From: Nitrosomonadales bacterium
GTDB taxonomy: Bacteria; Pseudomonadota; Gammaproteobacteria; Burkholderiales; Gallionellaceae
NCBI GenBank assembly: GCA_023259055.1
Contig: JAHFQZ010000001.1
Coordinates: 434,001-498,000, forward strand
Direction: 5' to 3'
DNA length: 64,000 bases
Positions 41,953 through 44,208 of this stretch are shown here, one piece after another. The stretch's first letter is position 1, and every line of letters begins with the position of its first letter. Position numbers and translations under genes: made by a program. The notes beneath the pieces were generated by a model. The model searched no databases. It was given only the letters and a program-made list of their open reading frames with translations, and was not told the origin of the DNA.

Positions 41953-42138
41953 TCAGGAAGATTTGTTCGAATCCTTGATGACTTCCTTTGCATCGCCAAA
42001 GGCTTTCTCTGCTTTTCCGGCTATTTGCTTGCCGAGACCTTTGGCTTGCTGCTCTTTACTGCCGATCAGCTGCCCAACTTTTTCCTGCACTTTCCCGGAT
42101 ATGTCTTTTGCAACGCCTTTGACTTGATCTTTGTTCAT
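41953..42138 (-). CDS. CsbD family stress protein (copy 1)
   Basis: A 61-residue CsbD/YjbJ-type protein: NKDQVKGVAKDISGKVQEKVG and QQAKGLGKQIAGKAEKAFGDAKEVIK, hydrophilic, Lys- and Gly-rich. Family members are abundant general-stress proteins of unknown mechanism. The frame opens at 42153, but AAGGA precedes the ATG at 42138. A 34-base box 56 bases upstream recurs before copy 2. It ends in a terminator. Confidence 0.88.
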   Translation of the reverse strand: MNKDQVKGVAKDISGKVQEKVGQLIGSKEQQAKGLGKQIAGKAEKAFGDAKEVIKDSNKSS

Positions 42139-42193
42139 GACTTTTTCCTTCATTTAAATTGACAGGGTATCCCTGTTGGAACTGTAGATTGAT

Positions 42194-42227
42194 CGTAATG
42201 TTGTCGCCGGTCTGTACGGTAACGAAC
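42194..42227 (-). promoter_or_regulatory. Shared upstream box, csbD copy 1
   Basis: A 34-base sequence that recurs at 43308-43341 with 32 identical bases (hand count). On the minus strand it reads GTTCGTTACCGTACAGACCG and then GCGACAACATTACG. Its distance to the start codon (55 bases) is similar to that of the second copy (58 bases), which suggests a common promoter or operator. Confidence 0.6.
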
Positions 42228-42388
42228 CAATAACTATTTAATTAACTTTCCCGGCCTGAATTACCGTCACGATGGGAGGGTGCAGAAACTTTGTGCATGG
42301 TTTGTTCGGGCACGCTACAGATGCTCATTTATACCCACAGTGAACGAAGCTCATCATCTGAAGTATTATTCGCCTTATAAATATACGA

Positions 42389-42916
42389 TCAGGTATCGCT
42401 CTTCATAAACAGCCGAGCCAGTGGTCGTCTCCAGAGGAATCCAAGCACAATGGACAGGATTCCAAAAAATATCGCTCCGAGTTCACAGACAGCGCGTGCG
42501 TCCTTGGCTAGCCTCAACAGATCCTCACCCTGCTGCATAGCCAATTTGCCTGCATCTAGCCGTTCCTCGCCAGCGTTAAGTTTTTTCTCTCCTTTGGCAA
42601 CTTGCTTATCCCCTTCGGCAATCTGATCTCTACCCTTTTCAAAGCCTTTTCCACCATTCAGCACCTTATCCATCAACACCAGGAGTTTGTTGGCATAAGC
42701 CTGAGCATATTCCTTCTTGCCCTCTGACAACTCTTGCTTGCCTGCTTCCAAATTAGCTTTGCCCGCATCAAGCGCAAGCTTTCCTTTTTCAAGCTGATTT
42801 TGGCCCTCGGAAATTTTTCTTTCCCCGGCAACAATCTTATCGGAGAGAAGTAGATAACCGGCCACAAACGCAATAGCCAATAGAATTACGAGCAGTAAAG
42901 TTAACAATTTAGCCAT
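42389..42916 (-). CDS. Two-TM protein with glycine-heptad repeats
   Basis: A 175-residue protein of unknown function. One TM helix at each end (about 4-24 and 146-162) flanks a predicted periplasmic part. Glycine recurs every seventh residue at 31, 38, 45, 52, 59, 66 and again at 88, 95, 102, 109, 116, 123, 130, for example GKLALDAGKANLEAGKQEL. The pattern resembles the heptads of YhgE/Pip-type proteins. Residues 67-87 would form the turn of an antiparallel helical hairpin. An AAGGG site precedes the start. It lies between two csbD genes and has no known family name. Confidence 0.78.
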   Translation of the reverse strand: MAKLLTLLLVILLAIAFVAGYLLLSDKIVAGERKISEGQNQLEKGKLALDAGKANLEAGKQELSEGKKEYAQAYANKLLVLMDKVLNGGKGFEKGRDQIAEGDKQVAKGEKKLNAGEERLDAGKLAMQQGEDLLRLAKDARAVCELGAIFFGILSIVLGFLWRRPLARLFMKSDT

Positions 42917-43063
42917 GATTTTCCCTTCATATATTAACGAAGCTCGTAGCGCACCTGCGCATTATGAGAGCAAGCCCAGTGTGCTACGTTTTGCTTCCGC
43001 CTATCTCTTCGCATACCCAATGGAGAGTGCAAATGCATAGTTATTTCATATTTCATAAACACA

Positions 43064-43249
43064 TCAGCCATGTTTACCCGCATTTTTGATGGCTTCTTTT
43101 GCATCGCCATAGATTTTTTTGGCATTACCGAATATTTGCTTGCCTACCTCTTTGCCTTGTTTCTCTGGGCTGCCGAACAGCTTCCCAAACTCTTCCTGCA
43201 ATTTAACGAAGATGCCTTGTTCAACGCCCTCAACTTGATCTGCGTTCAT
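43064..43249 (-). CDS. CsbD family protein (diverged copy 2)
   Basis: Also 61 residues. It shares about 33 of 61 positions with copy 1 in an ungapped hand alignment. It starts NADQVEGV and ends GDAKEAIKNAG, but some family Lys/Gly positions are replaced by hydrophobic or acidic residues (GIFVKLQEEFGKLFG), so it may have changed role. GGGAGG lies six bases before the ATG at 43249, whereas the upstream ATG at 43255 would sit directly on that site. A recurring 34-base box lies upstream. Confidence 0.75.
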   Translation of the reverse strand: MNADQVEGVEQGIFVKLQEEFGKLFGSPEKQGKEVGKQIFGNAKKIYGDAKEAIKNAGKHG

Positions 43250-43614
43250 GACCATCCTCCCTTATTAATAAATTGGCAGACTCTTCCACAACAAGTTGAA
43301 GAATGAACGTAATGTTGCCGCCGGTCTGTACGGTAACCAACTTAAAAACAAAATGGAACTGGCCAATCAGAATTGCCGACTCAATGTTGATAGTGTCTGG
43401 AATAATGAATTTTGTGTAAAGCCCGTTTCATCTTTAGGATATTTTATATTCTCAACAAGCCCCACTATGTGCGCTGGCATACAGAATGATTATTATCCAT
43501 TTACTATCATTTGCCGGTGTACATTCAAAAAATTGGTTGGCAACATGATTCTCCGCTTTGAAAACCACATACTCATAAACACCATCAGAATGGTCGATAT
43601 AAAAGGTGAAGAAG
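43250..43614. other. Divergent gene-free stretch between csbD copy 2 and the CheB-like gene
   Basis: About 365 bases, AT-rich by eye, containing the second shared box (43308-43341, minus strand). An open frame of 109 codons at 43296-43625 starts with TTG and has no ribosome site; its composition is not gene-like. No terminator or long repeat was seen. Confidence 0.5.
43308..43341 (-). promoter_or_regulatory. Shared upstream box, csbD copy 2
   Basis: The second copy of the 34-base box, differing from 42194-42227 at two positions. It lies 58 bases before the start codon of csbD copy 2. Confidence 0.6.
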
Positions 43615-44208
43615 ATGCCTATTAAACTAGACACATCTACGAGAGATTTCCCTATAGTTTGCATCGGCGGTTCAACCGGTGGCCTCGACGCCTATATTAG
43701 GCTTTTGCAAAATCTCCCGGCTGACATGGGTGTGGCTATTGTCATCGTTAATCACATCACGCAAATGCCTACCCACCTCCATGAAGTTCTTCCTCGCTTT
43801 ACAACTATGCCGGTTGATCTCATCACGGAAAGTTTGCTAATCGAACCTAACCGCGTATTTATCATCCCTGAAAACCGGGATTTACACGTCTTGGATGGCG
43901 AGTTTCGTCTTAAGCCGATATCAAAGCCACGCGGCTGGCCTGACGTAATCACGGTTTTCCTGCGTTCACTGACGCGTTACTGGGACGGCAAGCTTATTGC
44001 TGTTATTGTCTCGGGCTATGATGGGGACGGGGCAGCAGCACTGTGTGGCATCAAAGAAGTTGGAGGCATTACAATCGCGCAGAAGCTTAGTACGGCGAGT
44101 CAGCCAGACATGCCGGAGAGCGCAATTAAAAGTGGGTGCATCGATTATATTTTGTCGCCAGAAAATATCGCTCAAGAAATTGTGCGTATTGCGCGCGTTG
44201 AGGCCTGA
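43615..44208 (+). CDS. Stand-alone CheB-type methylesterase domain
   Basis: A 197-residue protein consisting only of a CheB-like methylesterase/glutamine deamidase domain, without the N-terminal receiver domain of chemotaxis CheB. The catalytic Ser is in CIGGSTGGLDA, the His in IVNHITQMPTHL, and the Asp in SGYDGDGAAAL (usually a TGMGxDG loop, here altered). A GTG at 43606 is an alternative start, but AAGGTG is well placed before the ATG at 43615. The AI-2E permease begins directly after its stop. No chemoreceptor or other chemotaxis gene is in the window, so the substrate is unknown. Confidence 0.82.
   Translation: MPIKLDTSTRDFPIVCIGGSTGGLDAYIRLLQNLPADMGVAIVIVNHITQMPTHLHEVLPRFTTMPVDLITESLLIEPNRVFIIPENRDLHVLDGEFRLKPISKPRGWPDVITVFLRSLTRYWDGKLIAVIVSGYDGDGAAALCGIKEVGGITIAQKLSTASQPDMPESAIKSGCIDYILSPENIAQEIVRIARVEA

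Follow-up and report, generated by a model that had tools for sequence, protein, structure and literature searches.

The window, by which we mean the whole 64,000-nucleotide stretch of DNA that was analysed, contains two csbD-type genes on the reverse strand with a gene for a 175-aa protein between them (Table 1). The first, csbD1, scored 47.1 bits against the Pfam CsbD family (PF05532), above the curated cut-off of 40, whereas the more divergent csbD2 scored 25.1 bits, below this cut-off, with a match spanning 40 residues. The two proteins are 56% identical, in agreement with the initial annotation, which had them differing at almost half of their positions, and a repeat search found a 204-nt stretch over both genes to be 73% identical between the copies. 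The start codons used here are those favoured by homologues in the alignment; the longest open reading frames (ORFs) start slightly earlier. The 175-aa gene has no Pfam match and no box of its own, no site within 147 nt upstream having fewer than 6 mismatches, and it may perhaps be transcribed by read-through from csbD2. A similar gene of 171 aa at locus L125 does carry its own box. Genes similar to the 175-aa gene adjoin csbD at L125 and L149. The 175-aa protein contains repeated GK/EAGK units, and its N-terminus apparently forms a membrane segment. Next to csbD2 is a gene for a stand-alone 200-aa protein with a CheB methylesterase domain.

Each csbD gene is preceded by a 34-bp box. The two boxes are identical at 32/34 positions, with 55 and 58 nt between them and the likely ATGs, as initially described, and when the match is extended to 45 bp the identity is 89%. 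A 19-mer of the box occurs twice in the window at ≤ 3 mismatches, compared to a mean of 0.01 in shuffled windows. Across the whole genome, the 19-mer search returned the two known copies and one 3-mismatch match which overlaps a 77-aa open frame.

The core of the box is a dyad, TGTNCG-N4-CGNACA, and the inverted repeat is visible in the variants GTACGTTACCGTAC, GTGCGTTACCGCAC and GTTCGTTACCGAAC; perfectly palindromic variants of the operator occur in relatives. Operators of Crp/Fnr proteins consist of two half-sites flanking a four-base centre. The dyad has this two-fold symmetry, with half-sites around a short centre, and the boxes in the window depart from it at 1 and 2 positions, one of the 2 mismatches of the csbD2 dyad being a C to G change in the left half-site.

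Table 1 Features of the csbD locus (positions are those of the window).
Feature	Position	Strand	Remarks
csbD1	41953..42138	-	PF05532, 47.1 bits; start at 42138 by homology; longest ORF from 42153
Leader inverted repeat CAGG..CCTG	42162..42176	-	Some 23 nt upstream of the csbD1 ATG; alignment A1 columns 67-82
Predicted -10 hexamer of csbD1, CAATCT	42186..42191	-	Predicted transcription start near 42179
34-bp box before csbD1	42194..42227	-	Ends 55 nt before ATG 42138
csbD1 operator dyad GGTTCGTTACCGTACA	42213..42228	-	Centre 42220.5, predicted -41.5; 1 mismatch to TGTNCGNTANCGNACA
Gene for 175-aa protein	42389..42916	-	No Pfam match
csbD2, divergent CsbD-type gene	43064..43249	-	Start at 43249 by homology; longest ORF from 43255
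Predicted -10 hexamer of csbD2, CATTCT	43300..43305	-	Predicted transcription start near 43293
34-bp box before csbD2	43308..43341	-	Ends 58 nt before ATG 43249
csbD2 operator dyad AGTTGGTTACCGTACA	43327..43342	-	Centre 43334.5; 2 mismatches to operator
CheB methylesterase-domain protein	43606..44208	+	200 aa, stand-alone

Conservation of the box in the genus

A CsbD match was present in 22 of 61 genomes of the genus. The upstream regions of 21 csbD genes of the genus, including the two in the window, align over the box, which is therefore not a chance similarity. The aligned regions comprise the box, a block with the consensus CATTACGTTCAATCT and a leader that contains an inverted repeat, and the csbD1 box is identical to the genus consensus. 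A two-sequence profile had placed csbD-type genes at 25 distinct places, four of which (L038, L039, L049 and L055) were omitted from the alignment because the 19-mer had 7–8 mismatches there. When the operator pattern was scored in the omitted rows, L039 had 1 mismatch, L038 had 3 and L055 had 5 (L049 was unscored). The E. coli-type csbD genes L033, L034, L035 and L036, which stand outside the 21-row alignment, had 3, 1, 0 and 2 operator mismatches respectively.

The pattern GGTTCGTTACCGYACAGA was found at ≤ 2 mismatches at 60 sites in 76 genomes of the genus, compared to 6 sites for the reversed pattern; a 12-mer search was dropped as too unspecific. We inspected 44 of these 60 sites: 17 lie before csbD, 22 before other or unidentified genes and 5 within long ORFs on the same strand. 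A same-strand ORF of > 120 aa was in fact flagged at 6 of the 44, one of which (L155) is the upstream extension of csbD itself, and an opposite-strand ORF of > 120 aa surrounds 8 of them (L124, L125, L129, L133, L138, L144, L156 and L162). The other genes behind the sites, as identified by Pfam from the first part of each protein, include those for NorB of nitric oxide reductase, a DUF6629 protein, an ABC transporter and an FGE-sulfatase-domain protein, while a YflT-like stress protein and a response regulator matched just below the Pfam cut-offs. One site adjoins a Crp/Fnr gene (L142 and L200). The proposal that the box has been kept under selection is strongly supported by the genus alignment and by these sites before other genes. 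The suggested scan for the motif upstream of other genes gave a divided answer: within the window's own genome the 19-mer was not found before further stress genes, the outcome that was to count against the proposal, but in relatives other genes do carry the box.

At L127, L138, L140, L156, L152 (site 3401) and L153 there seems to be reuse of the csbD promoter and leader, partly together with the first codons: a lipoprotein and proteins of 142–156 aa that bear a PQIRFP motif open with csbD-like residues behind a similar leader. The inverted repeat in the csbD leader was also considered as an RNA hairpin, a reading which we rejected. Although 94.3% of cells pair (29–60% in slid versions), shuffling within columns gives a mean of 93.0%, and 66 of 500 shuffles are at least as high as the real alignment, so that covariation gives no support for RNA over DNA in this repeat.

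Promoter spacing and a candidate regulator

We counted xANNNT hexamers at offsets 12–74 from the dyad centre in five sets of sites, and offset 30 had the highest count in all five, other offsets averaging 4–9%. The hexamer was found at offset 30 in 21/21 csbD promoters of the genus, which is probably Gallionella (those of the window included), in 8/9 and 9/13 promoters of two sets of other Gallionella targets, at 7/8 sites that belong to csbD genes of other genera and, upstream of Crp genes, at 17/42 sites from 34 loci, each of these 17 being TANNNT. It should be noted that the Gallionella promoter rows are interrelated and that the counts ignore kinship, so that p-values are not literal and spacing is better tested by the sets from other genera. 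With a weighted -10 matrix, offset 30 was favoured in the csbD set and in the csbD genes of other genera; offset 28 (TTCAAT) outscored it in nine leader-like Gallionella promoters and came second in the csbD set. The Gallionella hexamer resembles TATAAT only weakly, and both hexamers in the window are intact.

A hexamer at the fixed offset of 30 would place the dyad at about -41.5, which is the position of an activator rather than that of a sigma-factor -35 element. We predict a class II position, with the dyad at -41.5 and a sigma-70-type -10, which the hexamer proxy favours in five sets and the matrix score at offset 28 disfavours in one. Visual inspection of L128, L130 and L135 had suggested a second type of promoter at -61.5, which gained no support as a class, offset 50 not being among the top offsets listed for the 13 promoters.

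Single or paired Crp/Fnr genes of one unnamed subfamily were found near operators. At 17 of 20 fetched loci the operator had ≤ 1 mismatch, 13 of these being exact, and the remaining three were poorer (L208 with 3, L210 with 4 and L217 with 4 mismatches). Two adjacent Crp/Fnr paralogues, with the recognition helices RREGITE and RRVGVTK and possibly with common operators, lie at L200, L201, L204, L205 and L207. One subfamily protein was then matched to 412 relatives in named records, and among the best 80 of these the best site within 260 nt upstream had ≤ 1 mismatch of 12 in 34 cases and ≤ 2 in 48, compared to means of 0.1 and 0.6 in 10 rounds of shuffling (which preserves base composition only) and to 0 and 0 in coding stretches. 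The other 32 of these best 80 had no operator at ≤ 2 mismatches. The records with operator-bearing subfamily genes carry the names of Betaproteobacteria and of Methylobacter-type Gammaproteobacteria. As a control we took 34 loci of other Crp/Fnr genes of the genus, one of which had no ORF and one too short an upstream region; the operator at ≤ 2 mismatches preceded none of the 32 scored, the four from the window's own genome among them.

The subfamily was present at E ≤ 1e-10 in 33 of 76 genomes of the genus. Among 61 genomes it was found in 20/22 of those with csbD and in 6/39 of those without (Fisher p = 6e-9, which ignores kinship). In the order as a whole, 165 exact operator sites were found in 82 of 300 genomes, compared to 37 sites for the reversed pattern. 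A Crp gene lies in 6 of 11 fetched regions of the order (L401, L402, L404, L405, L406 and L409), 8 of the 11 having been picked for an exact operator near csbD. The clearest case is L409, which belongs to another family of the order and in which csbD and the Crp gene diverge with operators between them. For csbD genes from other genera we used the 30 best-scoring matches, which are not a random draw, and 29 were scored since no start was found for L387. An operator at ≤ 2 mismatches preceded 7/29 (shuffled 0) and was absent from the other 22, and control of csbD by this operator is therefore not universal.

The proteins of the subfamily have a Crp-like helix-turn-helix (PF13545) with RREGITE or RRVGVTK as the recognition helix. 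The PF00027 nucleotide-binding domain of one member scored 21.6 bits, below the cut-off of 27.5, which sets it apart from CRP proper, and the best NCBIfam match of the subfamily was 25.4 bits against a cut-off of 274. The recognition helix of FNR proper (E-T-V-S/C-R, as in the FNR-like genes of the genus) was not found in the subfamily, and the FNR-like controls had no operator upstream. Alignment A3 shows three cysteines that hardly vary (C167, C244 and C246), which are only a hint at the signal sensed.

In the window's own genome no subfamily gene was found at E ≤ 1e-10, and a tblastn search for a remnant at E values up to 10 gave only a stretch of 24% identity at an Fnr-like gene. Four Crp/Fnr proteins score over the Pfam cut-off there, none of which belongs to the subfamily, and three weaker matches resemble other helix-turn-helix proteins. 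The assembly is 99.99% complete by its listing and is a draft of 9 contigs. A second genome, G071, also has a boxed csbD and no subfamily Crp gene at E ≤ 1e-10. An exact operator was absent from the window's own genome, and its 10 sites at ≤ 1 mismatch, compared to 7 for the control, are no clear excess; some of these precede ORFs, perhaps by chance alone, including one at L361 which starts 53 nt before an ORF for what we take to be a BrkB/YihY-type membrane protein. As the cognate gene was not found in this genome, we claim membership of the Crp/Fnr operator class for the genus, and the two boxes in the window could be recent orphans, or be read by a different protein, or belong with a gene missing from the assembly.

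Interpretation and relation to known systems

The most probable explanation, to which we give a probability of about 80%, is that the box is a class II operator of a Crp/Fnr-type transcription activator which regulates csbD and other genes. Both the class of site and the type of regulator are well supported for the genus and beyond by sequence comparison, namely by a conserved dyad at a constant distance from the hexamer, by the presence of this operator upstream of many subfamily genes and by the co-occurrence of the subfamily with csbD. The initial suggestion of a common regulator thus gains strong support from the csbD alignment, the other targets, the operators of the Crp genes and the promoter spacing. 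A dimer of the Crp/Fnr-type protein would bind TGTNCG-N4-CGNACA centred at -41.5 and would recruit RNA polymerase of the sigma-70 type to a promoter that has a -10-like hexamer (CAATCT or CATTCT) and lacks a good -35, and this binding would switch on csbD. In relatives the activator would also switch on other genes, its own included, and the subfamily is apparently self-regulating.

A sigma factor site had been offered as the other possible reading of the box, which would then be the -35/-10 promoter of an alternative or ECF sigma factor of the general stress response. According to PMC7083833, csbD is a directly regulated EcfG target in the alphaproteobacterium Sphingopyxis granuli, whose EcfG promoter is GGAAC-N16-CGTT. 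However, GGAAC-N16/17-CGTT is absent from the 300 nt upstream of both csbD genes in the window, and the box forms an inverted repeat, some variants of which are perfect palindromes; it often precedes a gene of a DNA-binding family and has a -10-like element at a fixed place downstream. We dropped the sigma factor because of the dyad, centred about 29.5–30 nt upstream of the hexamer in the geometry of an activator, the spacing and the absent EcfG-type motif, and consider it very improbable. It is slightly less improbable, and still unlikely, that the dyad is read by another dimeric regulator, such as a LuxR-type response regulator, and that the Crp gene is merely another target. Such a reading would accommodate the two genomes with a box and without the subfamily (that of the window and G071) and the site carried by L151, a gene with a weak response-regulator match, and the candidates examined here were Crp/Fnr proteins only; against it, the operator recurs before the genes of one subfamily across the Betaproteobacteria- and Methylobacter-type-named records, and a 16-bp dyad at -41.5 suits Crp/Fnr proteins. 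Least credible of all is that the similarity of the boxes is a functionless trace of tandem duplication or gene conversion. The coding parts do align too, but the box is kept in the genus and also stands before unrelated genes, so that this reading is already contradicted by the comparison.

Compatible with a Crp/Fnr-type operator, and concerning the organism of the window only, is the possibility that its boxes are relics whose activator has been lost and which are decaying or unread. We regard this as a genuine, if somewhat doubtful, possibility. It would agree with the failure to find the cognate gene or a remnant of it, with the lack of clear enrichment of other operator sites and with the altered half-site of csbD2, whereas the consensus box of csbD1, the intact hexamers of both promoters and the site at L361 speak against it, and a 9-contig draft may lack accessory genes. 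More broadly, we tentatively propose, at somewhat short of even odds, that this unnamed, self-activating Crp/Fnr subfamily is an activator of stress genes common to Betaproteobacteria and Methylobacter-type Gammaproteobacteria and repeatedly targets csbD, and that the species of the window has lost the activator with its target promoters intact, where another factor may have taken over.

The proposed operator, its predicted promoter architecture and the candidate regulator would apply to a large group of Crp/Fnr proteins, and they would tie csbD, which is under a stress sigma factor in another bacterium, to an activator instead. No earlier description of an operator for this subfamily was found in the open-licence literature searched, and a word search of PMC5343134 found no mention of crp, fnr, csbD or stress. 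As in the EcfG general stress regulon of Sphingopyxis granuli (PMC7083833), csbD would be a member of a stress regulon, unlike there without the sigma-factor promoter motif before the csbD genes of the window. With respect to the CsbD family itself, csbD1 lies within the Pfam limits and csbD2 outside them. CRP, FNR and NtcA are regulators of the Crp/Fnr superfamily with class II promoters, in which the operator is centred at -41.5, and known half-sites are TGTGA or TTGAT. The system described here differs from these three in its half-site, TGTNCG, in its recognition helix and in its low scores for the nucleotide-binding domain and against NCBIfam. It resembles Crp/Fnr class II systems in the PF13545 helix-turn-helix of the subfamily, the 16-bp dyad of two half-sites, the predicted centre at -41.5 and the apparent self-regulation.
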